Shown here in pieces: positions 1 through 24,303 of a stretch of DNA of 64,000 nt (position 1 is the first letter of the stretch; each line of letters starts with the position of its first letter). The stretch lies in NCBI RefSeq assembly GCF_009659535.1, contig NZ_VJZZ01000011.1:1-64000 (forward strand), in the 5' to 3' direction. Origin of the DNA: Aggregicoccus sp. 17bor-14. GTDB taxonomy: Bacteria; Myxococcota; Myxococcia; Myxococcales; Myxococcaceae. The notes under the pieces are model-generated. The model saw only the letters and a list, made by a program, of their open reading frames with translations. It was not told where the DNA came from and did no database searches. Made by a program: the position numbers and the translations under genes.

Positions 1-120
1 GGCGACGAATGGGTGTTTGGCGACTCCATCCGTAGCCTTCGGCGGTGTGGCTCGCTGCGCTCAACCCGCCGGCCCCTCGTCAGACCGACGGCCCCCCTTC
101 AAAACTGCGAAACTCGAACT

Positions 121-140
121 AAGTTAAGGCTGCTTTACTT
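121..140. promoter_or_regulatory. Imperfect inverted repeat upstream of fic
   Basis: The arms AAGTTAAG (121-128) and CTTTACTT (133-140) match at 7 of 8 positions around a 4-base spacer. The spacer length equals that of the perfect repeat 12 bases downstream, which suggests two related protein-binding sites in the fic promoter. The operator role is inference. Confidence 0.4.
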
Positions 141-152
141 CACGGATGCGCT

Positions 153-180
153 ATTTAAATCAAGTCGGCTTGATTTAAAT
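153..180. promoter_or_regulatory. Perfect 12-bp inverted repeat, probable fic operator
   Basis: The arms ATTTAAATCAAG (153-164) and CTTGATTTAAAT (169-180) are exact reverse complements around a TCGG spacer. They end 24 bases before the fic start. The AT-rich arms stand out in this GC-rich DNA. The Fic protein carries its own winged-helix domain, so autoregulation through this site is plausible but unproven. Confidence 0.7.
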
Positions 181-204
181 AAGCCTCGGCTGAATGCTGT
201 CTCG

Positions 205-1365
205 ATGGTGGCGAAAGTAGAAGTCGCTTCGAGGGTAGGCCGCGAGCGGGTGCGGTCCTTCGTGCCGCCGCCGCTCCCGCCGGTTTCCCCCATCGACCTC
301 CTGCGCCTGCTGGAACCTCTCAGCCGCGCCGAGCGAGCTCTGGGGCGCCTCGACGGCATCACGATGCTCCTGCCGCGCCAGGAGCTGTTCCTGTACATGT
401 ACGTGCGCAAGGAGGCGGTGCTCTCCTCGCAAATCGAGGGCACGCAGTCGACGCTCACCGACCTGCTTCGCTTCGAGACCGACGCTAAGGCCGGCCAGCC
501 GATCGACGACATCCGCGAGGTCTCGAACTACGTCGACGCCATGATGTACGGCCTCGAGCGGCTCCAGACTCTCCCGCTCTCGCTTCGGCTCATCCGCGAG
601 ATGCATGCCCGCCTGCTGCAGGGAGGGCGTGGCGGCACGAAGGACCCGGGCGAGTTCCGTCGCTCGCAGAACTGGATCGGAGGCACCCGGCCCGGAAACG
701 CGCTGTACGTCCCGCCTCCGGCGACGGAGCTGGAGGGCTGCCTCGGCGCCCTCGAGAGCTTCATGCACGAGGAACAGTCCCGGCTGCCGGCCCTGATCAA
801 GGCGGGGCTCCTGCACGTGCAGTTCGAGAGCATCCACCCCTTCCTCGATGGCAATGGCCGCATCGGCCGCCTGCTCGTGACGCTCTACCTGTGCGTCCAC
901 GGGGTGCTCCGCAAGCCGCTGCTCTACCTCAGCCTCTACCTGAAGGCACACCGCGCTGATTACTACCGCTTGCTGCAGGAGGTTCGTGAGCACGGCGCGT
1001 GGGAGGCGTGGCTCGAGTTCTTTCTCGAGGGCGTCGAGCAGACGGCGAACCAGGCGTTCGAAGCGACCACGCGGATCGTCGAGCTGTTCAAGCGCGATCG
1101 GGAGCGCATCACCACCTCGAGCGAGCGCGCGGGATCTGCACTTCGCGTGCACGAGCTGCTGCAGACGCAGCCCTTCCTCAACTCGAACCAGCTCGTGGAG
1201 CGGACCGGGCTCACTGCGCCCACGGTGAATGCGGCGCTCGCGGACCTGGAGCGCCTGGGCATCGTCGAGGAGGTGACCGGACGCAAGCGAGGTCGCGTCT
1301 TCGCATACCGCGGCTACCTGGCCGTGCTGAACGAAGGGACCGCCCCGCTGCAGGGAGCTTCCTGA
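205..1365 (+). CDS. Fic family protein with N-terminal inhibitory motif and C-terminal winged helix
   Basis: A probable AMP-transferase that would modify target proteins with ATP in the cytoplasm; the target is unknown. The catalytic motif HPFLDGNGRIGR (residues 211-222) fits the Fic consensus with its catalytic His. An N-terminal S-x3-E-G motif (Ser74 to Gly79) matches the inhibitory helix of class II Fic proteins, which blocks ATP binding. Residues about 310-370 look like a winged helix-turn-helix. I chose ATG 205 because upstream codons run through the inverted repeats; the frame itself is open back to position 13. The length of 386 aa is usual for the two-domain type. A toxin-antitoxin module follows on the same strand after about 160 bases. 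Confidence in the family is high; the substrate and any toxic role are not known. Confidence 0.9.
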   Translation: MVAKVEVASRVGRERVRSFVPPPLPPVSPIDLLRLLEPLSRAERALGRLDGITMLLPRQELFLYMYVRKEAVLSSQIEGTQSTLTDLLRFETDAKAGQPIDDIREVSNYVDAMMYGLERLQTLPLSLRLIREMHARLLQGGRGGTKDPGEFRRSQNWIGGTRPGNALYVPPPATELEGCLGALESFMHEEQSRLPALIKAGLLHVQFESIHPFLDGNGRIGRLLVTLYLCVHGVLRKPLLYLSLYLKAHRADYYRLLQEVREHGAWEAWLEFFLEGVEQTANQAFEATTRIVELFKRDRERITTSSERAGSALRVHELLQTQPFLNSNQLVERTGLTAPTVNAALADLERLGIVEEVTGRKRGRVFAYRGYLAVLNEGTAPLQGAS

Positions 1366-1489
1366 TGGGCGTGGGGCGAGTCAGGCCCGTCACGCCAGGG
1401 CGCTCGGGACGCGGGCTCGAATTGTCGGAGCGGAGCGGTAAATCGTCTGCTTGGTAAGCATCTCCACGCCCAGGCATCCTCGATGGGGG

Positions 1490-1509
1490 TGGACTTTGGA
1501 CTCAGTCCA
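1490..1509. promoter_or_regulatory. Palindrome plus direct repeat upstream of the mqsR-like gene
   Basis: TGGACT-C-AGTCCA (1497-1509) is a perfect 13-base palindrome, preceded by another TGGACT at 1490-1495. It ends 19 bases before the toxin start. MqsA-type antitoxins repress their own operon at short palindromes, so this is the best candidate operator; binding is inferred. Confidence 0.5.
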
Positions 1510-1528
1510 TATTACCTGAGGGGCGTGA

Positions 1529-1930
1529 TTGCCGCCGCGATTTCCATTGGCCGAGGTTCAGGCGCTCGCGCGCGAGGAACGGTTTCGTCTGAATCCGGGG
1601 CCCGCTTGCGTGAAGACCTTGGAGTCGTACCTCCACGGGGAGCTCGAGAACTACCGCCCGTTCGCACAGAGGGTCATCGCCACACTCTCGCTCGGGGACT
1701 TCTACCGCAGTGAGCAGTGGCCTCGCGGTCCAAAGGGAACCTGGGCAGATGAGTACGGCGTGCGCCTCCCGCCAGCACTTTGCGACGAGTTCGGAATCGG
1801 CCCCGCCGCCTGGTACGTGAAGGTCGTCGTGCAGCGGGGGCCGCGCGGTCAGGAGCTGTTCTTCATGTCACTGCACCCCCTCAACTTCGTCATGGTGCGC
1901 GATGCCGGCACCCTGCACCCCACTCCGTAG
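1529..1930 (+). CDS. MqsR-like toxin (mRNA interferase family)
   Basis: A probable mRNA-cleaving toxin of the MqsR family. The conserved core is visible as LSLGDFYRS (about residues 53-61), then W-A-D-E-Y and a beta strand WYVKVVVQ. It aligns with the E. coli MqsR core LSESDFYKS ... W-x-D-V-Y ... VYLKITV. At 133 aa it is longer than E. coli MqsR (98 aa), mostly at the N-terminus. The start is TTG at 1529 behind a GAGG site seven bases upstream; an alternative TTG lies at 1547. The gene is followed after 9 bases by the antitoxin, the toxin-first order usual for mqsRA. The family call rests on motif memory, not on a search. Confidence 0.75.
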   Translation: MPPRFPLAEVQALAREERFRLNPGPACVKTLESYLHGELENYRPFAQRVIATLSLGDFYRSEQWPRGPKGTWADEYGVRLPPALCDEFGIGPAAWYVKVVVQRGPRGQELFFMSLHPLNFVMVRDAGTLHPTP

Positions 1931-1939
1931 GAGGAGTCC

Positions 1940-2506
1940 ATGGACGAATTGACCTGTCTTGCTTGCGGTGAAGGCACCATTCGACCGATCAGCCGAGCGG
2001 GCCGTACGATGCGTTACCGGCAGCTGGAGCGACTCGAGTTGCCCGGCGATCTCGCACTCCCCACCTGTGATGCGTGTGGTGAGCTCTGGCTCGATGCCGA
2101 GGCCACGGAGGCCGCTCAACGTGCGCTCGCGGCGGAGTATGGGCGTCAGCTGTCGCTTCGGGCGGAGCAGGCCGTGGAGACGCTGCGAAGCACGCTTCCG
2201 CAGCGCGACCTCGAGCGCCTCATCGGCGTGTCGGCGGGGCTGCTCTCCAAGATCAAGAACGGCAAGGAGACGTCGCCTACCCTGACGGCGCTCCTGCTCC
2301 TGCTGGCGTCACGTCCGGAGCGAGTGCGAGAGCTGGAGCGGCTGTGGAAGCGCCCTGCGAGAAGTGCACTCCGCGCGCTCGAGGCAGAACCGCTGCGAGT
2401 CGAATCTGCCCCTGTGTTGTTCGGCGCTGCGCCACAGCCGGAGCTCGCACAGAGTGAGCCCATTTCGACGACCTCGACGCTGAATTGGGAGGCGCTCGCT
2501 GCATGA
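1940..2506 (+). CDS. MqsA/YgiT-like zinc-finger antitoxin with C-terminal extension
   Basis: A probable antitoxin and autorepressor for the preceding toxin. The N-terminus has two CxxC pairs (Cys6/Cys9 and Cys43/Cys46), the zinc-binding arrangement of MqsA/YgiT proteins. The middle (about residues 85-110) contains a helix-turn-helix with the core IGVSAGLLSKIKNGK. The protein has 188 aa, longer than E. coli MqsA (131 aa). About 45 C-terminal residues after the helix-turn-helix are low in predicted structure and end TSTLNWEALAA. In toxin-antitoxin-chaperone systems such a tail is the chaperone-addiction segment that makes the antitoxin depend on SecB. The stop codon overlaps the start of the SecB-like gene (ATGA), indicating translational coupling. 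Confidence 0.8.
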   Translation: MDELTCLACGEGTIRPISRAGRTMRYRQLERLELPGDLALPTCDACGELWLDAEATEAAQRALAAEYGRQLSLRAEQAVETLRSTLPQRDLERLIGVSAGLLSKIKNGKETSPTLTALLLLLASRPERVRELERLWKRPARSALRALEAEPLRVESAPVLFGAAPQPELAQSEPISTTSTLNWEALAA

Positions 2507-2982
2507 GCGCCCTGTCTCCAGAAGTGCAGAAGCAGGTCATCGCTCTCGCTCGCAACGTGAGCCTCCGCGACGTTCGGGTGGTGTCGTTTCGTGCGGAGCG
2601 GGTGGGAGTGCCTGCGCCTGGGCCCGAGGCGGCCGCACTTTCCGTGGACAGCCAGGTGGCGCACGCACCGCTGCCTCCGCATGGGTTCGTGATCGAGATG
2701 CGCTTCCGCGTCGAGGCGCGCGCTCGGGAGGCCGCCGGCGAGCCCTTTGCCCTTTTCGAATACCGGGTGGGAGCGATCTACGGCCTGAATGGAGAGCTGC
2801 CCACGGCCGCGGTGCTAGATGCGTTCGGGCGGACGAACGGGATGGTGCACCTGTGGCCCTATCTTCGCGCCTACATCCAGCAGGCCAGCGCTCAGCTCTC
2901 GCTCCCCGCGCTCGTGCTGCCTCCGTACCGCGTCGTCGAGTCGGGAGCCAGTGCTGCGCCGAGTGGCCGCGTAGCAGAGTAG
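2503..2982 (+). CDS. SecB-like chaperone of a toxin-antitoxin-chaperone module
   Basis: A probable SecB-fold chaperone that would protect and fold the unstable antitoxin. The 159-aa protein has the SecB order of elements: a long strand (VIEMRFRVEARAR), a second strand pair (FALFEYRVGAIYGL), a helix (LWPYLRAYIQQASAQL) and the closing strand LPALVLPPYRV, comparable with the Pro-Pro-rich end of SecB. The start ATG overlaps the antitoxin stop by 4 bases, so all three genes form one operon. Position and coupling argue for an antitoxin-dedicated chaperone rather than the housekeeping SecB. Identity is by pattern only; a profile search would settle it. Confidence 0.75.
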   Translation: MSALSPEVQKQVIALARNVSLRDVRVVSFRAERVGVPAPGPEAAALSVDSQVAHAPLPPHGFVIEMRFRVEARAREAAGEPFALFEYRVGAIYGLNGELPTAAVLDAFGRTNGMVHLWPYLRAYIQQASAQLSLPALVLPPYRVVESGASAAPSGRVAE

Positions 2983-3074
2983 GCGGGACCCCAGAGCTGT
3001 GTGGCAAGCCACGGTGGCGACAGGAGAGGAGCCTGAATTAGGCTCCCGCCCATTCGGTCATCTGGCGAGGCGCT

Positions 3075-3302
3075 ATGTTCAAGAAGCTGTCCGCCTTCGG
3101 TAACAGCCTCAAGCTCATCATCGGGCGTCGGCTCTTCCCGTTGCTCGACAACGCCAAGGATACGCCTTTCGAGGTCAGGACCCCCGGCGAGGTATTGATC
3201 GTCCGCCCCATGAGGACGGCAGCACAAGTCGACTCCGTGCTCGGCGCAGCGGACGCACTGATGACCGCGCACGAGGAGACCTTCCGGAAGCTCGCCAGGT
3301 GA
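3075..3302 (+). CDS. AbrB/MazE/SpoVT-type DNA-binding protein
   Basis: A 75-aa protein of the swapped-hairpin AbrB fold. It opens with KKLSAFGNSLKLII, the typical first strand and turn of this family, followed by TPFEVRTPGEVLIVRP, the second hairpin. Such proteins serve as antitoxins (MazE, VapB) or as transition-state regulators. No toxin of the PIN or MazF type follows, so it is either an orphan antitoxin or a regulator of its neighbours. It lies 92 bases after the SecB-like gene and ahead of the TOTE primase-helicase on the same strand. Confidence 0.8.
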   Translation: MFKKLSAFGNSLKLIIGRRLFPLLDNAKDTPFEVRTPGEVLIVRPMRTAAQVDSVLGAADALMTAHEETFRKLAR

Positions 3303-3447
3303 CCGGCTACGTGCCAGGCCGGCGGCAGCTCGAGCATTGTGGTGGCGGAGCGGGAATGCGCACCCGCGGGCTCCTTCACACCGTTTGTCCGGGGGTGTCG
3401 CGGTCGAGTTGGATGAGCCCATCGAAGGCTCGGTGGAGCTGTCGATC

Positions 3448-6018
3448 GTGAGTCAGCGCGATCCCTCGAAGGCGGTCGGCTCTGGCCGGTCGCCAGGCGA
3501 TCCGAACGAGCAAACCGAGCTCGCCGAGCTGATTGCGAGTGGCGAGGCAGAGCTCCGTCGACTGGAGTTTGCGCAGGCTGAAGCAAGGGCGCGCCTCACC
3601 TTGCTCCGGGCCAGGCTCGAGGAGGGGGGTGGGGGCACTCAGGCGACCGTCGCACCGGTGGCCACCGCGCCTGCTGCGCGCGTCCCTCGAACTGCGGCTG
3701 AGAAAGTGCGGCTCTTCCGTCAGCTCTTTCGCGGCCGGCTGGATGTCTATCCCACGCGCTTCGTCAGCAAGAGGACGGGGAAGCCCGGCTATGCGCCTGC
3801 CTGCGCGAACAAGTTCGTTCCCGGCGTCTGCCAGTTGCCGGCGGTCACGTGCAGCGCGTGCACGAAGCAAGCGTTTCGTCCGGTGGATGACGCAGCGGTG
3901 CTCGCGCACCTCACGGGCCAGCACGTCATGGGCGTCTACCCGATGCTCAGCGATGAGACCTGCTGGTTGCTCGCGGCAGACTTCGACAAAGGGAGCTGGC
4001 AGGAGGATGCGCGCGCCTTCGTGGAGACGGCGCGCCGCCACAGGCTCCCGGCGCTCGTCGAGCGCTCGCGTTCAGGGAAGGGGGCCCACGTCTGGTTCTT
4101 CTTCTCGTCTCCCGTCGCAGCATCCGCGGCACGGAAGCTGGGTTGCTACCTCATTACCGAGACCATGGCGCACCGCCACGAGCTCAGCATGGAGTCCTAC
4201 GACCGGCTCTTCCCCAGTCAGGACACGATGCCGCGCGGCGGGTTCGGCAACCTGATCGCACTTCCGTTGCAGCATGGGCCTCGACAGGAGGGCAACTCGG
4301 TCTTCTTGGATGAGGATTTCGTCGCCGTCCCGGACGACCAGCAGTGGGCCGTCCTTGCATCCGTGGAACGCATCGATCCGGCCACGGTGGAGCGCATCGC
4401 CTCCGAAGCCACCCAGGCCGGAAGTATCGTCGGCCTGCCCGCACTGGAGGGAGGGGACGAGGAATCCGCGGCGCCGTGGACCCGCGTGCCCTCAGGAAAA
4501 CCTCGCCCCGCGCACCCTCTGGGGCCGCTGCCCGAGCGCATCGAGGCCGTCCTCGCACAGAGGCTGTACGTGCCGAAGGCCGGCCTTCCTGCCTCGCTCC
4601 TGAATCAGGTGAAGCGGGTCGCGGCCTTCCAGAATCCCGAGTTCTACAAGAGGCAGGCGATGCGCCTCTCCACGGCGAGGGTCCCCCGGGTGATCAGCTG
4701 CGCGGAGGACCTGCCGCTGCATGTGGCGCTGCCTCGTGGCTGCCGGCCTGAGCTCGAAGCGCTGCTGGCGGGACACGGGATTGCCCTGCAGGTGGAGGAC
4801 CAACGCACGCCGGGCACTTCGCTCGCCCTGCGCTTCCACGGAGCGCTCAGCTCCGTCCAGGCGGAAGCGGCCCGGGCACTGCTGGCCCACGACGATGGCG
4901 TGTTCGTCGCTCCGCCCGGCGTGGGCAAGACCGTGCTCGGGGCCCACCTGGTGGCGGCGCGCGCTCGCAGCACCTTGGTCCTGGTCCACCGCAGACCCCT
5001 GTTGGACCAGTGGCGCGCGCAGTTGTCGCGCTTCCTCGGCGTCGAGCGCGAGGGGATCGGGCACCTTGGTGGTGGCCGGGATGCGCTCACCGGAAGGATC
5101 GACGTGGCGATGGTCCAGAGTCTCGTTCGCCAAGGTTCGGTCGATGATCGGGTCTCGAGCTATGGCCATGTGATCGTCGACGAGTGCCATCACTTGCCAG
5201 CGGTGTCGTTCGAGCGCGTTCTCGCTGAGGTCAGGGCACGCTACGTCCTGGGTCTCACGGCAACACCCCAGCGGCGCGATGGCCACCACCCCATCACTCA
5301 GATGCAACTCGGGCCAGTGCGCTCGATGGTCGACGCCAGGGCGCAGTCGGCAACGCGCGCCTTCGAGCACCGTCTCATCGTGCGGGAGACTTCGTTCCAG
5401 TTGGAAAGTCCCGCGCACCGGGCTGACATTCAAGCCCTCTACGCGGCTCTCGCCAAGCACGAGCAGCGCAACGCGATGATCCTGGAGGATGTACTGCGAG
5501 CGCTCGGACACCGCCGCTCTCCGATCCTTCTGACAGAGCGCAAGGAGCAGCTGGAGTACTTCGCCACCCGCCTACGTCGGCGCGCTCGCCACCTCGTGGT
5601 GCTCCAAGGCGGCATGGGCGCCAAGGAGCTTCGCGCGATCCATGCCCAGCTCGAAGCCATCCCTCCAGACGAGGAGCGACTGGTGCTGGCGACCGGGCGG
5701 TATGTGGGGGAGGGGTTCGACGATGCGCGGCTCGATACCCTGTTCCTCGCCATGCCGGTGTCCTGGAAGGGCACGTTGATTCAGTACGCGGGACGCCTCC
5801 ACCGGGTGCACCCGGGCAAGCGAGAGGTGCAGATCTTCGACTACGTCGACCGCGAGGTGCCGGTGCTGCGGCGCATGTTCGAGAAGCGCCTGCGCGGCTA
5901 CCGCGCGATGGGCTACTCCTCGAGCAGGGTGCCGCCGGAGCGAGGCGCAGCAACGGCTGACGACGACGAGGATGCCTACCCTCTGCTCGATGATGGCCTG
6001 GATCTCGAGGACCCGTGA
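3448..6018 (+). CDS. TOTE-type primase-helicase fusion
   Basis: A large protein joining an archaeo-eukaryotic-type primase domain to a superfamily 2 helicase, the architecture of TOTE conflict-system proteins thought to act on foreign nucleic acid. Residues 1-60 look like a coiled coil. The primase part (about 85-330) has Cys residues that could bind zinc, the metal-binding D178-F-D180, His214 in GAHVW and Asp259. The helicase has Walker A GVGKT (about 491-495), DECH (578-581), LTATP and QYAGRLHR (about 780). The frame is open upstream to TTG 3337; I chose GTG 3448 (856 aa) because GGTGGAG lies nine bases before it. TTG 3385 is an alternative. No separate nuclease gene is adjacent. Confidence 0.8.
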   Translation: MSQRDPSKAVGSGRSPGDPNEQTELAELIASGEAELRRLEFAQAEARARLTLLRARLEEGGGGTQATVAPVATAPAARVPRTAAEKVRLFRQLFRGRLDVYPTRFVSKRTGKPGYAPACANKFVPGVCQLPAVTCSACTKQAFRPVDDAAVLAHLTGQHVMGVYPMLSDETCWLLAADFDKGSWQEDARAFVETARRHRLPALVERSRSGKGAHVWFFFSSPVAASAARKLGCYLITETMAHRHELSMESYDRLFPSQDTMPRGGFGNLIALPLQHGPRQEGNSVFLDEDFVAVPDDQQWAVLASVERIDPATVERIASEATQAGSIVGLPALEGGDEESAAPWTRVPSGKPRPAHPLGPLPERIEAVLAQRLYVPKAGLPASLLNQVKRVAAFQNPEFYKRQAMRLSTARVPRVISCAEDLPLHVALPRGCRPELEALLAGHGIALQVEDQRTPGTSLALRFHGALSSVQAEAARALLAHDDGVFVAPPGVGKTVLGAHLVAARARSTLVLVHRRPLLDQWRAQLSRFLGVEREGIGHLGGGRDALTGRIDVAMVQSLVRQGSVDDRVSSYGHVIVDECHHLPAVSFERVLAEVRARYVLGLTATPQRRDGHHPITQMQLGPVRSMVDARAQSATRAFEHRLIVRETSFQLESPAHRADIQALYAALAKHEQRNAMILEDVLRALGHRRSPILLTERKEQLEYFATRLRRRARHLVVLQGGMGAKELRAIHAQLEAIPPDEERLVLATGRYVGEGFDDARLDTLFLAMPVSWKGTLIQYAGRLHRVHPGKREVQIFDYVDREVPVLRRMFEKRLRGYRAMGYSSSRVPPERGAATADDDEDAYPLLDDGLDLEDP

Positions 6019-6121
6019 GACAGGCCGGAAGCAGAGTCCGCTGAGCGCGGAGCCACGGCCGGTCGGAAGCGAGTGGAGCGAGGCCTACCGCGTATGGCAC
6101 GGCGGCGGTTGAGGACGCCCT

Positions 6122-6424
6122 TCAGCACCCCGGGGCCGGCGCCTTGCCTACACAGCACTTCTTGTACTTGCTGCCGCTGCCGCTGCCGCAGGGGCAGGGG
6201 GCATTTCGACCGGGCTCGAGGGCGCGGTGGGCGGGTTGCTCCGTGAACTGCCGCGCCGGGTCAAGCGCTTGCTCGAGCTGGGCCAGGTCCGGCGGCTGAC
6301 CTGGAGCGAGCTCCGTCATGTACTCGAGGCCGTGCTGCGCGCAGGTCCGAGCGACGTGCTCGATTGTCTCGTCATCTGGGACGCGCACCATGATGGGGCG
6401 CTTCTTGCTACCCCGCCTTGCCAC
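6122..6424 (-). CDS. Small SEC-C motif protein
   Basis: A 100-aa protein ending in a SEC-C zinc-binding motif: APCPCGSGSGSKYKKCC, with an extra Gly-Ser compared with the usual spacing. The first half (MVRVPDDETIEHVARTC and HGLEYM) resembles the N-terminal part of small SWIM/SEC-C proteins of the PBPRA1643 type, but I cannot confirm that. SEC-C motifs bind zinc and, in SecA, contact SecB and the ribosome. The start is GTG 6424 with GGAGG seven bases upstream. It is the last gene of a - strand block with three other SEC-C genes. Function unknown. Confidence 0.8.
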   Translation of the reverse strand: MARRGSKKRPIMVRVPDDETIEHVARTCAQHGLEYMTELAPGQPPDLAQLEQALDPARQFTEQPAHRALEPGRNAPCPCGSGSGSKYKKCCVGKAPAPGC

Positions 6425-6457
6425 TCCCTCGCCTCCTCCCGGAGCGGAGAGAACCGC

Positions 6458-7579
6458 TCAAAAATACTCCGCGACGCTCGGACGCATCGCACGCTTGAAG
6501 CGGTCGAAGAAGCCCTTGCGCCGCGCCAGCCTCTTCTTGAGCTGGGCGAAGCGCGCGTCGAACGCCTCCAGCTTGCCATCCCGCTCGGCGAGCGCGTGCA
6601 GGTCGCTCGCGAGGGCGACGGCCTTCTCGTACTCGCGCTCGTCCACCTTCTGCGCGAGCTCCGCCCACGCCTCCGCCCCGCGCTCGGCGAGCGCCTCCAG
6701 CCGCTTCTGCCGCCTGCGCTCGGCCGCCGCTTCAGAGCGGGTCTGCGCGGCTGCCTCGCGCGCCTCGCGCTTGCTGCGCAGTTGCTCCGCGCGCTTCCAG
6801 AGCTCGGCGGCCGTGCGCAGGGACGCGCTCCGCACCGGCGCCCGCGTCTGGCGGTACGCCGCGCGCAACTCCGCCCCCAGCGCCAGCTCCGGATGCTTGG
6901 CTGCGCGCAGCAGCCAGCGCAGCCGCTCGGCCTCCGGCAGGGCTTTCACCCAGGGCACGAGTCCGGCCTCGTCGTCGTCGAACTCAGGGCTCGCCTCGGC
7001 CGCTGCCGCCAGGAGGTCCACGTCGATGCGCAGGAAGTCCGCCAACGCTTCGAGCGGGCCGTCCAGCTTTCCAAGCCCTGCTGGAACGGGAGGCTCGGGT
7101 GCGTCGTCCTCGCGCTCGCCTTCCTGTAGTCCGCAGAGCCAGGCCAGGTACGCCGGGCGGAGGTCTCCCTGCAGCAGCAGCGCGCGCACGGGCGCGAGTG
7201 TGGCGAGGGAGGGCGGCTCCTCCCCGTCGTCACCGCCGTCGTTCTCGCTGCGCAGGTCGATCACGAGGTGCTCTCCGTGCACGGTGAGCTCGCGGGGCGC
7301 TCCGGCGAAGTAGGGCTTGAGGGAAGCGAGGTCCACTCGGTCCTTCGGCACCCGCAGCATCAGCCGGTGGGTGCCCCAGTTGGCGAAGTACAAGTGCAGG
7401 TCGAAGTACTTCGCGAGCAGCTTCGCCGGGTCCGCCTTGAGGTCGCCCCACTGGTACTCGTTCCAGAAGCGGGTCGCGGAGATCTCCGCCTGGGTCGAGA
7501 TGCCGCGCAGGGCGGTCTGCTCCTTCTCGCTCAAGGGCCGGTCGACTGCGACGAACTCGTACCACTGGTACTCGCTCAT
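6458..7579 (-). CDS. Conserved protein of unknown function with basic/acidic coiled-coil C-terminus
   Basis: A 373-aa protein that opens with YQWYEFVAVDRPLSEKE. I associate this opening with a widespread uncharacterised family. Residues about 1-120 form a compact domain rich in aromatic residues (NEYQWGDLK, YFANWGTHRLMLR). The middle is acidic. From about residue 255 to 350 there is a long Glu/Arg/Ala-rich helix, probably a coiled coil. No signal peptide, membrane segment or metal motif is visible. GGAAGGAG precedes ATG 7579 at good distance. It lies 25 bases after one SEC-C gene and 33 bases before another, so it is probably co-transcribed with them. Function unknown. Confidence 0.85.
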   Translation of the reverse strand: MSEYQWYEFVAVDRPLSEKEQTALRGISTQAEISATRFWNEYQWGDLKADPAKLLAKYFDLHLYFANWGTHRLMLRVPKDRVDLASLKPYFAGAPRELTVHGEHLVIDLRSENDGGDDGEEPPSLATLAPVRALLLQGDLRPAYLAWLCGLQEGEREDDAPEPPVPAGLGKLDGPLEALADFLRIDVDLLAAAAEASPEFDDDEAGLVPWVKALPEAERLRWLLRAAKHPELALGAELRAAYRQTRAPVRSASLRTAAELWKRAEQLRSKREAREAAAQTRSEAAAERRRQKRLEALAERGAEAWAELAQKVDEREYEKAVALASDLHALAERDGKLEAFDARFAQLKKRLARRKGFFDRFKRAMRPSVAEYF

Positions 7580-7604
7580 ACGGGCTCCTTCCCGGTGGGA
7601 CCCT

Positions 7605-8681
7605 CTAGGCTCCCTGAACAGGTCCGTGCGCGCGCAGATAGGCCTGAGCGCGGGCGAGCAGCGCGGCGGACGCGGCGTCGCCGGCCTTCTCCTGCTGCAG
7701 GCGGTAGGGCTCCAGCGTCGCCTCGGCCCACGTGGAGGCCGCTTTCAGGGCGGCGATCTGGGCCTGCTCCTCCGGGGAGTCCGCCATCCGGGGCGCGTCC
7801 CGCAGGTACGCCAGCGCGATGAGCTCCAGGGGCGCCAGCAGCGCCTCGAGGTGCAGGCGCCGGTACCAGTCCCGCGCCTCTGGGGTGAGCTTCGGATCCG
7901 CCGCGCGCCGCTCGAGGCGCTGCGCCAGGCGCTCGACGAAGGCGTCGTCCACCCGCTGCTTCAGCTCCTCGTGCAGGCGCACGGTGGCCTTCGCCTGCGT
8001 ACCCCACCACTTGCTCCGCAGGAGCTTCCTCGCGGCATCGGCGAGATGGGCATGGAGGTACGCCCACTCCGCTCCCGAGAGCACCGCGTGTCCGGCCTCG
8101 GTGCCCAGGGTGGTGAGGAGCTGCTCCTGCTCCCGGTGCTCGAGCAGCTCGCGCGACTGGACGAGGAACAGTGACTCCAGGAAGGGAACGCTCTCGGGAG
8201 CGAAGTCTCCGCCTCTTCGCGCGAGCTGCAGCGTGAGCATCGATAGCCAGAGCGCCCGCCGCTCGGGCTCGGGCGTGGAGGGCGCGCGGGCGAGCGTGAG
8301 CATCGCCGCCTCGAGCTCCCGCGCGAAGGCCGGCGTGACGAGCGAGCGGGCGATCTTCCCCCACAGGTCGCGCCGGGTGGGCTCGTGGCGCTCTGCCCGC
8401 ATCACCTTCAGGAGGGGCTCGAGCGGATAGCGCCAGGTGCCCAGCGGTGCCCCCTGCGCGAAGAGCCGCGCCATCTGCTCGGCGGAGTCCTTCAGGGGCT
8501 TCAGCTGCCGGGACTGGAGCACCGCCGCGGCCTCCTGCATCGCCCTCAGGTCGTCGGCGGGAAGCCCCGGGAGGGGAGGTGCGGCGGCCGGCGCGGAGTC
8601 CTTCTCCGTGCCCTTGCAGCACTTCTTGTACTTCTTGCCGCTGCCACAGGGGCAGGGGGCATTGCGTTCGAGCGCGCTCAT
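7605..8681 (-). CDS. SEC-C protein, paralogue A
   Basis: A 358-aa protein with an N-terminal SEC-C motif, NAPCPCGSGKKYKKCC, within the first 25 residues, followed by an all-helical body. The body matches the neighbouring gene at 8819-10183 along its length, for example LVTPAF, FAPE-x-VP-x-LESLF, EW-x-YLH and a shared end RAHG/AAHG. The pair is therefore a tandem duplication. I placed the start at ATG 8681, directly before the motif, because the other paralogue starts at the same place; the frame is open farther upstream. No ribosome-binding site is obvious. No known domain is visible in the body and the function is unknown. Confidence 0.8.
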   Translation of the reverse strand: MSALERNAPCPCGSGKKYKKCCKGTEKDSAPAAAPPLPGLPADDLRAMQEAAAVLQSRQLKPLKDSAEQMARLFAQGAPLGTWRYPLEPLLKVMRAERHEPTRRDLWGKIARSLVTPAFARELEAAMLTLARAPSTPEPERRALWLSMLTLQLARRGGDFAPESVPFLESLFLVQSRELLEHREQEQLLTTLGTEAGHAVLSGAEWAYLHAHLADAARKLLRSKWWGTQAKATVRLHEELKQRVDDAFVERLAQRLERRAADPKLTPEARDWYRRLHLEALLAPLELIALAYLRDAPRMADSPEEQAQIAALKAASTWAEATLEPYRLQQEKAGDAASAALLARAQAYLRAHGPVQGA

Positions 8682-8818
8682 CGTGGGGTGAGCCGTAGCA
8701 GTGGGGTAGGGGTCGGGCAAGGTGGAGGGCAGGGCGTGCGTCTGCAACCGGCGCCTCACGGTGTTACCCGCGGCCGCTTCAATGTCCGCTCTATGGACTT
8801 CGCGTTCAGTGGACCGCT

Positions 8819-10183
8819 TCAGGGCGGTGGGGCGGGAGAACTGTCTGCCGGGGTGTCGCTCGCGGTGCGCCACGAGTTCTGAATGGCGCCGTGGGCCGCG
8901 AGGCGGGCCTGGGCCCTGGCAACCCAGGTCGCACCCTGCGCGTCCCCTGTGCGCTCGATCTGCTCGCGGTAGGGCTCGAGCGCCGCGGCGTCCCAGCGAG
9001 CCTGGGCCTGCAGCGCCGCGAGCAGCCGGGTCTCCTCCGGAACGCCCTGAAGGGTGGGTGTGCCGTCGAGGTACGCCCGGACGATGAAGAACAGGGGCTG
9101 CGCCTCCGTCGCGCGGAAGATGCGCCGGTACCACGCGCGCTCCGATTCACCCGGGCGCGCCTCCGCGGAGAGGCGCTCAAGCCGTCCCAGCACGCCCTCG
9201 ACGAAGGTCTCGTTCATCGCCTGCGTGAAGGCGCCTCGCAGTCGGTCCCCCGCGGCCTGCTGGGCCCTCTTCTTCCGGGTGGCAGAGAACGCGCTGAGGG
9301 GCTCCCCGACGTGGGTGTGCAGGTAAACCCACTCGGGGCCGGTGAAGAAGGGCTGCACGCCCGGGCCCCGGAGCGAGGCGAGTGCCTCCTCGCGCTCGTG
9401 CTCCAGGCGGTGTTGGAGCTCGCGCTGCAGCTGCGGGTCCTCGTCCAGGACCTGATCGAGCGCGGCTGCCACCTCCGGCCGCTTGCTCAGCTCCCGGATG
9501 AGCAGTTCCTCCGCTCGAGCATCCGTGGGGAGCTCGTGCGTGCCCTCCAGGGCTGCGGCGTAGACCTCGCGGACCTTGTCGCGCCGGGAGACCCACTCGC
9601 TCATCTGGAGGTAGAAGAGGGACTCCAGGATGGGGACGTTCTCCGGGGCGAAGACGCCCATCTCCATCATCTGCAGCGTGAGGTGCGCGACCCACAGCGG
9701 CAGTCGCTCGTGCTCGGGCGTGGTGCGGGCTCGCGCCCGGTCCCGCAAGGCGCCCATGACTTCTTCCGTGAACGCGGGAGTCACGAGCACGGGGGCCGCT
9801 GCGCACCACAGTGCATCGCGCTGCGCCTCCGGCGTGTCGGACTCAGCCTCCGGAGGGTTCTTCCTCCAGGGCTCCATCGCGTCCACGAAGGCCTCGGTCA
9901 GGTAGCGCAGGTGCGCCAGGGGGCCGCCGGCCCCGAGCATCCGGGCGATCGCATCGAAGGCTTCCGTGAGCGGCTCCTTCTCGCCCGAGGACAGGAGGGC
10001 CGCGGCGCGGCTCATCCACTGGAAGTCCTCTCCGAGCGCATCCGCCGGTGCGCGCGCCGCCGCCCGCGCGACCGGGAGCGGGGCCTGCTCGCGCGCCGGG
10101 TCCTGTTCGGTGCCGAGGCAGCACTTCTTGTACTTCTTGCCACTGCCGCAGGGGCAGGGGGCATTGCGCTCCAGGTGGCTCAT
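8819..10183 (-). CDS. SEC-C protein, paralogue B
   Basis: A 454-aa protein beginning MSHLERNAPCPCGSG, the same SEC-C start as its neighbour. Compared with that paralogue it carries an extra segment of roughly 70 residues in the middle (around residues 225-290, including a Glu/Leu-rich stretch). The C-terminus ends in a short Ser/Pro/Asp-rich tail. The helical body has no signal peptide or membrane segment. It lies 137 bases upstream of paralogue A on the same strand. The DNA of the SEC-C motif is almost identical in both genes. Function unknown; a zinc-dependent protein-binding role is the family expectation. Confidence 0.85.
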   Translation of the reverse strand: MSHLERNAPCPCGSGKKYKKCCLGTEQDPAREQAPLPVARAAARAPADALGEDFQWMSRAAALLSSGEKEPLTEAFDAIARMLGAGGPLAHLRYLTEAFVDAMEPWRKNPPEAESDTPEAQRDALWCAAAPVLVTPAFTEEVMGALRDRARARTTPEHERLPLWVAHLTLQMMEMGVFAPENVPILESLFYLQMSEWVSRRDKVREVYAAALEGTHELPTDARAEELLIRELSKRPEVAAALDQVLDEDPQLQRELQHRLEHEREEALASLRGPGVQPFFTGPEWVYLHTHVGEPLSAFSATRKKRAQQAAGDRLRGAFTQAMNETFVEGVLGRLERLSAEARPGESERAWYRRIFRATEAQPLFFIVRAYLDGTPTLQGVPEETRLLAALQAQARWDAAALEPYREQIERTGDAQGATWVARAQARLAAHGAIQNSWRTASDTPADSSPAPPP

Positions 10184-10397
10184 CCCACGGGTCCGGTAAG
10201 GGTTGCGCGGAAACGATGACCACCGGCCGGATGGAGTGAAAGGGCGGCCAGCCCCTCAGCTCACGCTCGGCGATGCGGGAGAGGCTGCGCACCCAGGGGC
10301 GCCCGGACTGCGACCGACCGGGCGGCATGCGGTCTGTCCCGAGAGGGGAGAGCCCGCCCGGCTCGGGCGCGAAAGGGCGGCGGGAGCGCCGCGGCCC

Positions 10398-10943
10398 TCA
10401 CTCCAACGACTGAAGCAACGGGGCGAGCGCGATGTTCCAGTAGTTCGTGCTGCCGGTGTGCGAGTGGAAGGTGCGGGCGGACTGGGAGAGGCGGTTCACC
10501 AGGGCCTCGTACTCGGCGCGGCTGGTGTCGCGCAGGGAGAGGTAGAGCCGGGCCGCGCGCTGCAGGTACGCAAAGAGCGGGTTCGCATCCGTGCCATCCG
10601 GACGACGCCGCAGCTGGCGGAAGAGGCGCTCGAACTCCTCGTCCGGCTCGGGCCTGCCGCGCGCCGCGCACCCGAGCGCCGCCGTCAGCTCGAGCAGGAC
10701 GAAGAAGGGCACGTACTCCTCCGGCGGCTCGGGGCGCATCGGGGGCGCGGGCCGCGTCCCGGTGAGCAGCGCCGAGATGGGCTTCAGCGTGACGTCCACG
10801 TGGCGGTCTGCGAACCCGACCCGGACCTCGGCCTCGGTGGGACGCACGATTCCCGAGGGGCTGCCGACCACCGGGATCGACAGCTGCGCAGGGTCAGTCG
10901 CCAGCCCCGCCTCCTCGAGCTTCTTGATCACCTCTGCGTCCAT
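10398..10943 (-). CDS. Hypothetical protein in the SEC-C block
   Basis: A 181-aa soluble protein I do not recognise. It opens with KKLEEAGLATDPAQLSIPVV, has a central hydrophobic segment around LLELTAALGCAA, and ends with a mixed-charge helical part. There is no signal peptide. A strong ribosome-binding site (GAGGAGGAG) stands six bases before ATG 10943. It follows the 861-aa SEC-C gene after only 24 bases, so the two form an operon and may work together. The 214-base spacer below it (10184-10397) contains no gene that I can support. Confidence 0.8.
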   Translation of the reverse strand: MDAEVIKKLEEAGLATDPAQLSIPVVGSPSGIVRPTEAEVRVGFADRHVDVTLKPISALLTGTRPAPPMRPEPPEEYVPFFVLLELTAALGCAARGRPEPDEEFERLFRQLRRRPDGTDANPLFAYLQRAARLYLSLRDTSRAEYEALVNRLSQSARTFHSHTGSTNYWNIALAPLLQSLE

Positions 10944-10967
10944 CCGGCTCCTCCTCTTGCCCAGGCC

Positions 10968-13553
10968 TCAGACCTGAAATCCCTCCGGGAGCTGCGGCGT
11001 GAAGCCGGCGGCCCGGGCCCGCTCGCCGAGCTCCGGCGAGACGCTCCCCAGCGTCAGCACGCTGTAGTCCTTCCCTCGCTTCGCGTGCAGCTCCCAGCGC
11101 TGCACCCGTCGCAAGTCGTGCGGGTGGCGCTGGCGCTTGCGCTCGAGCAGCAGGTCGAAGTCCGCAGGGTCGAAGCCCTCGCGCACCAGGTGTCCCCGCA
11201 GCCGCACCGCCTCGTTCGCCGAGGGCGTCTCCGCGTCCGCCACCGCCGCGTTCCACACGATCGCCGCGAGCTTCAACACCCGGCGCGCCTCGGAGGCCTT
11301 GCTCGCCCCGCGGTCGAGCAGGGGACGCGCCAGGTCCAGCAGGCTCTCGGAGAGCTTCCGCCCCGCGCCCAGCGCTAGGTCCACGTCGTGGTTCGGAAGG
11401 GGCTGTCCCAGCGCATCGAGGCCCAGCTCGCGGCGCAGCAGGCGTACGTCCTCCACGCTTCCCGCCATCTCGTCGCGTGCGGCGGTGTTCTCCAGGGTGC
11501 GCAGCAGCCGGTGCACGGCGCGGCGGCCCTCGGCGTCCGCCAGGCGCTCGCGCGGGCGCGCGCCACCGAGCAGGGGGTGGGGTTGATCCGGCCAGGTCCG
11601 GTAGAAGTCGCGGCCCATCGCCTCCTCGACCGCCTCCACGCTGCCCTCCTGCAGCTGCGCGTCCAGGAGGATGTCCCCGCCGCCCGGGAGCTCGGGCGCC
11701 TCGAGCCGCTTGCGCCCGGTGAAGGTGAGGAGCGCTCCGGCCGCCGCCTCCACCCGCGCGCGCAGCGCGTCCGCGCGCTTCTCCGAGTTGGTGCTCAGCG
11801 TCAGGGTGGCCGGCGTCACCTTGGCGTTGCCCATGATGGTGTTCTCCCAGCTCGGGTGCACGGGGTTGCCGGGGCGGATGAAGGTCAGCGAGGTGCTCTT
11901 CGCCCGGTCCTCCTCCACCACCACGTGCTCGAGCCCCGCGAGCAGATCCACGAGCTTCTCGCGCTCGCCCTTGCGCACGCGGAAGCGGTCCTCCAGCAGC
12001 TGCAGCGGGTCTCCGTCCGTGTTCTTGAGGACGCTGGGCTCCTCCTGCTCGCGCTCGTAGTCCTCGACTGCTGCGCACCAGGCCTGGACGAGCTCGCCCG
12101 CGGAGGGCGTGCCTCCGAGCTGCTCGAGCACGGCGTCCGCCTCGGCCGGCGGGAGCAGCTCGGGATGCATGCCCGCCACCACCTGCTCGCCGGGCACGCT
12201 CGTCACGCGGCCCACCACCACGTCCCGCGGCACGAGCACCCTCGAGGCCGACACCTCGTGCACGGTGGCCCGGGTGCCGGTGAGGAGGTCCACGAGGTCC
12301 ATCCCCTCGCCGGGCCGCACCTCCAGCACCTCGTGGGCGCTGGAGCGCGCGGCGAGCTGCGCCTCGAGCCACACGCGCTCGTCCGCCGATAGGCTCGCGC
12401 CGCGCTCCTCCAGGTAGTGCTTCGCCACCGGCTTGCCCTCCACGGGGCACTCGAACAGCGACCACGGGAGGAACAGCTCGGGGTGCGCCGGGTGCTCGCC
12501 GTAGAGCTCGTGCATCGGGCCCTTCACCGTCTCGCGGGTGAAGCGCTTCGCGCCCCACGCCGACAGCTTCTCGGTGAGCGCTTCGTCCACCGCGTGCCAG
12601 CGGGAGCGCCCCGGCGCCGCGGAGGACGCGGCGGCGCGCGCGTTCGCGCCCCCGTGGCAGCGCTTGAACTTCTGGCCGCTGCCGCAGGGGCAGGGCTCGT
12701 TGCGGCCCACGGTGCCCCAGGCGGCCGCGGCCACCGCCTCGGCGGCGCGGGGGCCGGGCGAGGTCGCCGTGGCGCGCACCGCCGTGCGCGGCCCGGCGGT
12801 GGACTCGCCGCGGCCCTCGCTACGGTTCTTGCACAGCGCGACCACGGCGCGCAGGGACGCGGTGAGCAGCGCCAGCTCCCCGGAGGGGAGCGGCACCATC
12901 TCGCCCCCGCGCACCCGGATGACGATGGGCGCGAAGGGCGCCCCCGTCGCCTCCTCGACCGCGTCGACGATGTACTCCGGCTCCTCGTTCAGGAGCAGCG
13001 CGAGGCTGTCGACGGAGGCCGCGGCTGACTCTCCTCCCGCGTCGAAGAGCCGCTCGACCTTCGCCACCGAGCCCGGCGCGAAGTAGATGGCGAGCCCGAA
13101 CTCCTCTCCGCCGCTGCCCAGCACGCACGCCTCGAGCGTGCGCGGGTGCGCCCCCTCCACGTGCAGGGTGAGGGGGATTTCCGAGTCGAAGAGCTCCCAG
13201 GGCAGCTCCCCGTCGAACTGCGCCGCCGCCTGCAGGAGCTCGACGATCTGCGGCGTGTGCTCGGCTCCGCCGAGGTCCCCCTCGTGGTCCATCCCCACCG
13301 CCATGGCGGCCTTGAGCTGGACCAGCTCGCGCGGAAGGGGCGCGACCTCCAGCCCCAGCTTGCGCGTCTCCTTGCGCAGCCCTTCCTCGCAGACCGCCCC
13401 CGCGGTGAGCCCCCTCTGCACGAGCTCCTTCAGCGCCGCCGCCTTCGTCGGGCCCGTTGCCAGGTCGGGCTCGGTGTCTCCTGCGGCGAGGCAGCAGTAC
13501 GAGCGCTCCCCATCCTGGGTGATGAGCGGACCGAGGCAGAAGACGTGGCGCAT
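10968..13553 (-). CDS. Large protein with central SEC-C motif
   Basis: An 861-aa protein with a SEC-C motif in the middle, NEPCPCGSGQKFKRCHG (about residues 293-309), where the last metal ligand is His rather than the second Cys of the CC pair. The motif separates an N-terminal domain of about 240 residues (a Cys/Tyr-rich start, then an acidic part) from a C-terminal part of 530 residues with no domain I recognise. An Ala/Arg/Pro-rich linker precedes the motif. I chose ATG 13553 (MRHVFCLGPL); a TTG at 13589 would add 12 residues. It is the first gene of the - strand block and is followed closely by the 181-aa hypothetical gene. No transmembrane segment is visible. Function unknown. Confidence 0.85.
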   Translation of the reverse strand: MRHVFCLGPLITQDGERSYCCLAAGDTEPDLATGPTKAAALKELVQRGLTAGAVCEEGLRKETRKLGLEVAPLPRELVQLKAAMAVGMDHEGDLGGAEHTPQIVELLQAAAQFDGELPWELFDSEIPLTLHVEGAHPRTLEACVLGSGGEEFGLAIYFAPGSVAKVERLFDAGGESAAASVDSLALLLNEEPEYIVDAVEEATGAPFAPIVIRVRGGEMVPLPSGELALLTASLRAVVALCKNRSEGRGESTAGPRTAVRATATSPGPRAAEAVAAAAWGTVGRNEPCPCGSGQKFKRCHGGANARAAASSAAPGRSRWHAVDEALTEKLSAWGAKRFTRETVKGPMHELYGEHPAHPELFLPWSLFECPVEGKPVAKHYLEERGASLSADERVWLEAQLAARSSAHEVLEVRPGEGMDLVDLLTGTRATVHEVSASRVLVPRDVVVGRVTSVPGEQVVAGMHPELLPPAEADAVLEQLGGTPSAGELVQAWCAAVEDYEREQEEPSVLKNTDGDPLQLLEDRFRVRKGEREKLVDLLAGLEHVVVEEDRAKSTSLTFIRPGNPVHPSWENTIMGNAKVTPATLTLSTNSEKRADALRARVEAAAGALLTFTGRKRLEAPELPGGGDILLDAQLQEGSVEAVEEAMGRDFYRTWPDQPHPLLGGARPRERLADAEGRRAVHRLLRTLENTAARDEMAGSVEDVRLLRRELGLDALGQPLPNHDVDLALGAGRKLSESLLDLARPLLDRGASKASEARRVLKLAAIVWNAAVADAETPSANEAVRLRGHLVREGFDPADFDLLLERKRQRHPHDLRRVQRWELHAKRGKDYSVLTLGSVSPELGERARAAGFTPQLPEGFQV

Positions 13554-13675
13554 GCCAGGCCCGCTAGCAGGGGGAGGCCGGGTGAGCAACGTGACGGTGG
13601 GGCAGGTTCCGACGGGTGAACCCTTGCCGGCCCGGGGTGCGCTCGCTCAACCGTGGTGCGGCGGCGACTCGACCC

Positions 13676-14194
13676 TCAGCGCACCCAGCTGCCGACGACC
13701 TCGGACTCTTCTACGTCGAGCGCGCGCGCAATCCGGTAGAGCGTCGTACGGCGGGGCATGGATGCGGAGGAGAGCATCCGGCTCAACGACGGTTGCGGGA
13801 TGCCACTGCGGCGTGCCACTGCGCTGATTCCGCCGTGCGCATCGACGAGCGCTCGTAGGCGGCGCTTGTGCTCCATGACCTGCGTGGCGACCGCGTCGAG
13901 ATTGTCGAAGTTGACCTTGGCCTTCTCGACGATGCCTCGGGGCATCTCCACCGCCTCGTCGACGGCCTCCTGCAAGTCCGCGACGAGCTGCTCTCGCTCC
14001 CGCCTCGTCCGGGCTTCTGCCCAGAGCTCCATGAGCTCGAAGGCCCCCTGGTCGTCGAAGGCAAGGCGATGCACAGCGTCGACGAACTGGGTGGAAAGAC
14101 CTGCCTTGGTCATGCGCTCCGCGATCTTGGCTGCGGTCACGCGCTGCGCAGGGGTGGTCTGGAAGCTCGTCACGGCAGGTTCATACCATTCCAT
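13676..14194 (-). CDS. Helix-turn-helix transcriptional regulator
   Basis: A 172-aa protein with a helical N-terminal part and a C-terminal XRE-like helix-turn-helix: GGISAVARRSGIPQPSLSRML followed by TTLYRIARALDV. I placed the start at ATG 14194 (MEWYEPAV), where the DNA just upstream turns AT-rich; the frame is open for 75 more codons. It is transcribed away from the recC-recB-recD operon across a 248-base spacer that holds no other gene, so it may regulate that operon or itself. No toxin partner is adjacent. The regulatory target is inference. Confidence 0.8.
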   Translation of the reverse strand: MEWYEPAVTSFQTTPAQRVTAAKIAERMTKAGLSTQFVDAVHRLAFDDQGAFELMELWAEARTRREREQLVADLQEAVDEAVEMPRGIVEKAKVNFDNLDAVATQVMEHKRRLRALVDAHGGISAVARRSGIPQPSLSRMLSSASMPRRTTLYRIARALDVEESEVVGSWVR

Positions 14195-14442
14195 AACATT
14201 TTGCTCGAGCGCACCAGGTGTGCGCCCGGACCACCCACCGTAGGCGTGGGGACTGACGCCGGAGGCCAGGCCCGCCGACATACGTAGGTACTGGAAATGA
14301 TGGCAGGGGAGGCCGTCCGCCTTCCGGCGCGCGCGGCTTTCTGTGAGGCTCCCGGAAAGCTCAACGACTGCCGCCGTCCTCGTGTTTGGCCGCTCTGCAC
14401 TTCGCGGAGCGGGTGTCACCCCTTCGCGCTACGCCACGCCCC

Positions 14443-23730: not shown

Positions 23731-24303
23731 ATGCGAAAGCCACCGAAGCCAGCGACCTACGCGGATCTCGAGGCGCTTCCCGTACATCAGGTGGGCGAGA
23801 TCGTGGACGGCGAGCTTTATGTCTCGCCGCGCCCTGCGTCTCGCCATGCGATCGCGGCTTCCGCACTGGGGGGCGAGCTGTTCGGGCCCTTCCATCGTGG
23901 ACGCAACGGCCCGGGGGGATGGTGGCTGCTCGACGAGCCGGAGCTGCATCTGGGCCCGGATGTCCTCGTTCCAGATCTCGCAGGCTGGAGGCGCGAGCGC
24001 ATGCCACGCGTCCCCGAGGTAACGTTCTTCACGCTCGCTCCGGACTGGATCTGCGAGGTCCTGTCTCCTTCGACGGCGAAGGTCGACCTGGTCCGGAAGC
24101 TTCCGAAGTACGCGCAGGCTGGCGTGCGTCACGCCTGGATTGTCGATCCCGTGATCAGGGCACTCGAGGTCTTCCGCTTGGAGCAGGGCCATTGGCTCCT
24201 GCTGTCCGCCTACGCCGGGGACGAGCGTGTTCGCGCAGCGCCCTTCGAGGCGATCGAGCTCGAGCTGGAGGCCCTGTGGCTCCCCGGGCCGGAGCAGGGG
24301 TAG
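23731..24303 (+). CDS. Uma2-type endonuclease-fold protein
   Basis: A 190-aa protein of the Uma2/DUF820 family, which has a PD-(D/E)xK nuclease fold and is abundant in cyanobacteria and myxobacteria, with uncertain natural function. Visible features are MxKPPKPATYADLEALP, the first acidic strand GPDVLVPDLAGWR, and EVLSPSTAKVDLVRKLPKYAQAGVRHAWIVDP. Thirteen bases separate it from recD and it may be co-transcribed with it. It converges on the SWIM gene, whose stop is 16 bases away. No partner toxin or transposase is visible. Confidence 0.85.
   Translation: MRKPPKPATYADLEALPVHQVGEIVDGELYVSPRPASRHAIAASALGGELFGPFHRGRNGPGGWWLLDEPELHLGPDVLVPDLAGWRRERMPRVPEVTFFTLAPDWICEVLSPSTAKVDLVRKLPKYAQAGVRHAWIVDPVIRALEVFRLEQGHWLLLSAYAGDERVRAAPFEAIELELEALWLPGPEQG

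Follow-up and report, generated by a model that had tools for sequence, protein, structure and literature searches.

The 64,000-nucleotide stretch analysed here (positions 1 to 64,000 of contig NZ_VJZZ01000011.1 of Aggregicoccus sp. 17bor-14; the window) carries, at 3448..6018 of the + strand, a gene for an 856-aa protein in which a primase-polymerase (Prim-Pol) of the AEP type is fused to an XPB-like superfamily 2 (SF2) helicase. The nearest described kind of this enzyme is the non-CRISPR, helicase-type CAPP_A primase-polymerase, and the block of genes in which it lies arrived as foreign genes together with toxin-antitoxin (TA) modules. That the protein is a primase-helicase and that its setting is mobile we hold to be very probable. 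As to its function, we infer, at a probability of slightly under one half (about 0.48), a CRISPR-independent helicase-type CAPP_A cargo enzyme of mobile DNA, whose work would be to unwind DNA, prime it and fill gaps. An earlier note on this DNA, made from the sequence alone, had read the gene as a TOTE-type primase-helicase within a defence island.

The frame at 3448-6018 translates into 856 codons without a stop, and the open reading frame (ORF) is real and intact. Its start is uncertain (3337 to 3706), because the frame is open from 3337 and the gene callers disagree, having chosen 3385 and 3706. The profile search proposed in the earlier note upheld its TOTE-domain primase fused to a helicase: in Pfam, residues 85-316 match PF22548 (AEP-TOTE) with 303 bits (E=1.6e-90; cut-off 27) and residues 467-609 match ResIII with 82 bits, further DEAD-type helicase matches also lying C-terminal to the AEP-TOTE domain. 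The D-F-D and GAHVW motifs it had pointed out are likewise present. In an alignment of 50 homologous sequences, D178, D180, H214 and D259 of the AEP part and G493-K494-T495, D578-E579-C580-H581, Q779 and R783 of the helicase part are invariant, the Walker A and DExH motifs included, and at least 90% of the sequences retain the putative zinc cysteines C119, C128, C135 and C138. H214 and a third Asp presumably belong to the active site of the AEP part. By analogy with D177/D179 of MpCAPP, the DxD motif would form the metal site (PMC8211822).

Structural comparisons agree with this division of the protein. A profile built from six homologs matched in the PDB the Marinitoga CRISPR-associated Prim-Pol (7nqd/7nqf, E about 1e-18) and an archaeal XPB (E about 3e-23). 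An AlphaFold model was built on a 47-sequence alignment (mean pLDDT, the per-residue confidence score, of 85). In it, residues 81-324 superimpose on the CAPP Prim-Pol with Z 26.1 and a root-mean-square deviation (rmsd) of 2.3 over 204 residues, the rmsd ranging from 1.9 to 2.4. From residue 362 on, the model matches XPB with Z 24-26; some of these superpositions have an rmsd >20, and the tightest archaeal one is 6p4f, with 4.6 over 389 residues. A helix at residues 19-59 stands ahead of both domains. The family is under purifying selection, the ratio of nonsynonymous to synonymous substitution rates (dN/dS) being 0.07 to 0.14 between close pairs; between the window gene and its near homologs L045 and L047 it is 0.20 and 0.21, at a dS of 1.1-1.3 that is near saturation.

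The name TOTE stands for TPR, OB, TBP and Effector (PMC12458937, citing Aravind et al. 2022), and in the present case it is simply the Pfam name of the domain. The protein might nevertheless be the effector of a genuine TOTE system, with the TPR-OB and TBP partners lying at another locus or so diverged that they escape recognition. PF22548 is indeed the effector domain family that the window protein shares with the TOTE conflict systems, and NCBI annotates the E. coli relatives accordingly, most of the 25 E. coli matches listed bearing the RefSeq label "TOTE conflict system protein". The TPR or OB partner of these systems was, however, not found beside the window gene: a Pfam scan of the window ORFs over 13-14173 gave no TPR and no OB/CSD domain, the contig start at base 1 limiting the view leftward. 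The TBP model PF00352 matched neither the own genome (0/1) nor the homolog-bearing genomes (0/32). It also failed in all 301 genomes of the phylum of a Chloroflexi metagenome-assembled genome (MAG; G159), there being no bacterial positive control, and since TBP-bearing TOTE-like operons have been reported from Chloroflexota (PMC12458937), the model may be blind to bacterial TBPs. We regard this explanation as very improbable. On present evidence the window locus is not a TOTE system, and of the conflict system named in the earlier note the effector domain alone was recovered.

Prim-Pol followed by helicase is the most prevalent architecture among the non-CRISPR CAPP homologues, which are typically located on mobile genetic elements and transposable elements (Zabrady et al., 2021, PMC8211822). 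The window protein has the same architecture, namely a CAPP-fold Prim-Pol (profile E about 1e-18, Z 26 to MpCAPP) and then an XPB-like helicase, and it shares the mobile or transposable-element setting in which helicase-type CAPP_A enzymes have already been reported (PMC8211822). It differs in having an N-terminal helix in place of the TPR, and TA neighbours, present at the window locus, go unmentioned in the accessible part of that report. CAPP in the strict sense is encoded with CRISPR-Cas adaptation genes. Cas1 (PF01867) was not found in the own genome, the same model matching in 9 of 14 control genomes, and the CRISPR equivalog PrimPol_Msp of NCBIfam gives the window protein 84.7 bits, under its cut-off of 200. 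The protein is therefore not CAPP sensu stricto, and a role in CRISPR adaptation in its own genome was rejected for want of Cas1.

The primase-helicase closes a compositionally atypical block (1..6020) of six same-strand genes, with a GC content of 0.668 vs 0.720 in the rest of the window. The GC content at third codon positions (GC3) is 0.75-0.89 for the genes of the block vs 0.92-0.93 for recCBD, which lies 8.4 kb from the primase-helicase. As window base 1 is also the first base of the contig, the left border of the block is cut off. No terminator-like site was found on the + strand across 1-6600, and a sigma-70 promoter scan gave no result. Of the window genes at 13-14281, upstream of recC in the window, not one stands beside recC in the six relatives compared, and the recC flank varies among these genomes. 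The low GC content, the absence of these genes beside recC in the six relatives, the patchy distribution and the mobile-element neighbours together point to a horizontally acquired setting.

The distribution is patchy already among relatives: 24 of 116 match at E<=1e-30, and the primase part is covered in just 12 of them, the own genome included. The remaining matches are helicase-only; counted among them is a C-terminal fragment at the edge of a contig. Broken copies occur in one related family, as two pieces with a stop in G086 (L039), split at residue 504 in G089 (L041), interrupted by a stop and lacking a stretch in G097 (L040) and reduced to residues 21-397 in G108 (L042); in G086 and G089 the damage does not stem from a contig break, because both are single-contig genomes. 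A scan of genome contigs revealed at least 548 relatives, and the best 80, the set used and hence biased to close homologs, span many phyla. In E. coli, 1,829 of 5,426 genomes contain DNA resembling the copy of E. albertii (at least 80% covered in 681), the best identity being 60-80% in 1,732 of 1,832 records. On plasmids, a match spanning 80% or more of the query was found in 90 of the 72,556 records. IMG/VR contributed 13 loci, nearly full length in 9. None of 50,697 phage records reached 80% coverage; shorter matches occur in 1,140, and the 40 of them that were listed all concern the helicase part only.

This near absence from phages bears on the proposal that the protein replicates or transposes the element that carries it, for instance by priming lagging-strand or replicative-transposition synthesis. 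The copies on plasmids and in E. coli, which also count as evidence for cargo on mobile DNA, lend the proposal some support. Sixteen plasmid regions were opened, 15 of them annotated, and in five of the latter (L183, L184, L193, L194, L195) a trio of tyrosine recombinases lies beside the primase-helicase. One copy has a resolvase on one side and a Tn3 transposase on the other, and TniQ adjoins two, with VapBC also present at one of the latter. HigBA, an Xre/MbcA/ParS antitoxin with HipA, HipA, and AbiEii with HipA were each seen once. The recombinase trios sit on alphaproteobacterial plasmids, in three cases about 40-60 bp from the primase-helicase stop and on the opposite strand; we take them to be RIT-like. 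In both E. coli regions opened, which are chromosomal (L197, L198), genes for YfjI and an inovirus-type Gp2 precede the relative, one region lying beside tRNA-Thr and the other near an integrase, which suggests that the two belong to one integrative element type. The recombination enzymes are, however, of unrelated types, and in most of 91 loci the tested recombinases are not within 2 kb. In addition, the Ppol of a Thermus integrative and conjugative element (ICE) is dispensable for replication of that element (PMC7693054). A replication or transposition protein is thus unlikely.

The neighbours of the related loci were compared by position. Upstream, 147 of 150 candidates were scanned (three focal-gene fragments were dropped and two rows still matching AEP-TOTE kept), downstream 144 of 160 (16 short ORFs or focal fragments were removed by hand); the distal comparison set was a random 150 of 350 genes, and L034 was left out as a duplicate of L047. 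AbiEii (15) and AbiEi_4 (10) stand out upstream, phage-type integrase (11), CcbP (6) and AbiEii (3) downstream, and the 25 families most frequent in the distal genes do not include AbiE. In a second count over 91 loci, 417 called genes <2 kb from the primase-helicase were set against 350 genes >5 kb away; the p-values treat genes as independent, so that kinship of the loci makes them optimistic, and the hidden Markov models for AbiE, Fic and the other families were seeded from the same loci. AbiEi (13 near vs 1 far, p=0.0023) and AbiEii (13 vs 2, p=0.0088) are enriched near the gene. Tyrosine recombinases (16 vs 0), serine recombinases (7 vs 0), CcbP (8 vs 0) and YhcG (5 vs 0) were likewise counted near it only, while AlbA_2 (7 vs 1, p=0.058) and Fic (7 vs 2, p=0.14, not significant) differ less. 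Recombinases and transposases are as typical of these neighbourhoods as toxin genes. An initial count of CcbP at 27 loci was dropped, most of the matches overlapping the focal ORF; the revised figure is 11 downstream and 1 upstream among 105 loci, and no CcbP gene was seen in the window.

The partners are exchangeable. On the tree, AbiE and tyrosine recombinase each change state at least 10 times and CcbP at least 7 times, from which it follows that partners were gained or lost many times, the tree having 98 rows and being made by a quick method that leaves 30 of its 94 inner branches open. The row nearest to the window is a Sandaracinus MAG contig of 70% identity, where a piece of a Fic gene adjoins on the opposite strand. 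No constant partner of the primase-helicase was found among the related loci. Given the mobile setting and the changing partners, we consider the partners exchangeable co-cargo.

The same neighbourhoods supply the case for an effector against phages or plasmids, in which invading DNA would be attacked or aberrantly primed by the primase-helicase, with the adjacent TA modules as a second, abortive-infection layer of the same island. AbiE near the gene argues for it, and the PADLOC scan of the near genes agrees with the AbiE enrichment and places YhcG/PDC-S02 nucleases beside the primase-helicase. The window Fic matches the PADLOC model of SoFic with 419 bits, and a toxin-antitoxin-chaperone (TAC) module with a SecB-like chaperone, CmdTAC, is a known phage sensor (PMC11618068). 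On the other hand, there is no constant partner, TA modules occur on all kinds of mobile DNA, and the Fic excess is not significant. Distal genes also match PADLOC models, such as Type I methyltransferases, so that the contigs seem defence-rich in general. As AbiE is the most frequent upstream partner and SoFic is present, this explanation, a tentative one, ranks close behind the favoured one. The defence island of the earlier note accordingly survives in part: a defence island at the window locus is plausible, the setting being accessory and horizontally acquired, with SoFic in the window and AbiE near related loci, whereas defence by the primase-helicase is unproven and, with no constant partner, unsupported. 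Neighbourhoods in relatives that have no tie to defence, and invariable boundaries, which the note had named as evidence to the contrary, were not what was found, since TA and Abi genes do accompany the relatives and the recC flank is variable.

Motifs that are kept while partners change are most simply explained by a self-sufficient DNA-processing cargo gene. In such an enzyme, forks, gaps or incoming ends would be the sites where the XPB-like half opens DNA or translocates along it; priming or extension on the strand so exposed would be the task of the Prim-Pol half. Single-stranded DNA of the element or the host would be filled or reprimed, leaving less for RecBCD/AddAB-type enzymes to attack. 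The TA modules of the window (MqsR-MqsA-SecB-like, SoFic and a possible AbrB-like protein) would be separate units serving stabilisation of the block or abortive infection, in place of which other lineages would use AbiE, HigBA or HipBA. Thermus offers a parallel: a Ppol carried on a mobile element holds AddAB in balance, and plasmids become less stable once this Ppol is lost (PMC9751324); replication of the ICE did not need Ppol (PMC7693054). In Ppol/Hel of ICETh2 of Thermus thermophilus, as in the window protein, a primase-polymerase and a helicase go together on mobile DNA (PMC7693054, PMC9751324), the two being separate genes there and one fusion here; they are likened by description, not by homology.

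Several points weigh against the cargo enzyme. No biochemical or genetic test of helicase-fused members of the clade was found in the literature. The Thermus parallel is one of setting and description. The proximity to recCBD (8.4 kb) is not repeated beside recC in the six relatives and may be chance; a conserved link between primase-helicase and recCBD, prompted by the balancing of AddAB by Thermus Ppol, was rejected on these grounds. The AbiE enrichment and the short distances upstream fit defence and maintenance equally well, and a defence gene carried as cargo would show the same mobility. The boldest proposal joins the enzyme and its changing toxin partners into one system: an interchangeable toxin module encoded directly upstream (AbiE, MqsR-MqsA-SecB, Fic or HigBA) would read the activity of the enzyme or its loss on attack, and damage to the primase-helicase or its DNA would trigger growth arrest. 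We consider such coupling improbable. The literature search brought up no publication in which TA modules are paired with this primase-helicase, which is weak evidence of absence, most subscription journals lying outside its coverage.

In the window the primase-helicase ends a + strand run of six genes with short gaps, preceded by genes for Fic, MqsR-like, MqsA-like and SecB-like proteins and an AbrB-like ORF. The Fic and toxin-antitoxin-chaperone neighbours of the earlier note were both confirmed, the latter now with names. Fic (13..1365, +) has the HPFLDGNGR motif and a C-terminal winged helix and matches PF02661 (E=5.7e-20). It covers nearly the whole PADLOC SoFic model (418.9 bits, profile positions 5-359 of 361), but remains with 180.7 bits below the NCBIfam SoFic equivalog cut-off of 550. 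The next three genes (1529-2982) are an MqsR-MqsA-SecB-like toxin-antitoxin-chaperone set, in which, by the pattern of TAC modules, the antitoxin would depend on the chaperone. The MqsR-type toxin of RelE-like fold (1529..1930, +) has no family match in Pfam; the PDB entry that its AlphaFold model (pLDDT 79.7) matches best is 3hi2, an MqsR (prob 1.00 and E=2.8e-4 in Foldseek), a profile giving E=0.19 to the same entry. The MqsA-type antitoxin (1940..2506, +), with a CxxC zinc part and a helix-turn-helix (HTH), has matches below cut-off to TIGR03830 (E=3e-10, 40 bits; cut-off 61.8) and Pfam MqsA (23.8 bits; cut-off 30). The SecB-like chaperone (2485..2982, possibly from 2524, +) resembles Rv1957 (5mtw; phmmer E=5.5e-5) and PADLOC PD-T4-9_C (E=1.4e-4). 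Toxin, antitoxin and SecB-like chaperone in one gene run are shared with the TAC of M. tuberculosis (Rv1957) and with CmdTAC (PMC11618068); the window toxin differs in being MqsR-like by fold and no ADP-ribosyltransferase. MqsR was matched in 7 of 96 family genomes, the own included; the MqsR-MqsA-SecB order recurs in three relatives (L180, L181 and L182), and only MqsR and MqsA were matched in L178, whose contig ends right after MqsA, and L179. The AbrB-like neighbour of the earlier note fared less well: the 75-aa product of 3075..3302 (+) matches TIGR02609 at E=0.052 and has no Pfam match, weakly suggesting an AbrB-like antidote.

Downstream, the stretch at 6122-13553 (-) holds a row of three larger and one small SEC-C motif proteins and one further protein, of 373 aa, that belongs to no known family; the 861-aa SEC-C protein has matches in just 18 of 60 genomes searched. 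Within this stretch, a conserved protein encoded at 6458..7579 (-) has no Pfam, NCBIfam or PADLOC match; its homologs lie <2 kb from the primase-helicase in 7 of 91 loci, the window included (8/417 near genes vs 1/350 far genes). Just upstream of recC, an HTH gene at 13676-14173 (-) has a weak addiction-antidote match and an atypical GC3 of 0.84, and a Uma2-family putative endonuclease gene (23791-24303, +) follows directly 3' of recD. A second island at the GC dip at 43.7-48 kb was rejected, GC3 there being 0.98-0.99.

Relatives of the window gene occur in hundreds of E. coli genomes and in many other bacteria, and are publicly named after a conflict system that is not visible around the window gene. 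The nearest relatives are non-CRISPR CAPP-type enzymes, and different lineages have repeatedly paired the primase-helicase with different toxin modules and recombinases. The vague name TOTE can thus be replaced by more definite questions, namely whether these enzymes serve defence, the maintenance of mobile DNA or both, and whether the toxin genes beside them act as guards.
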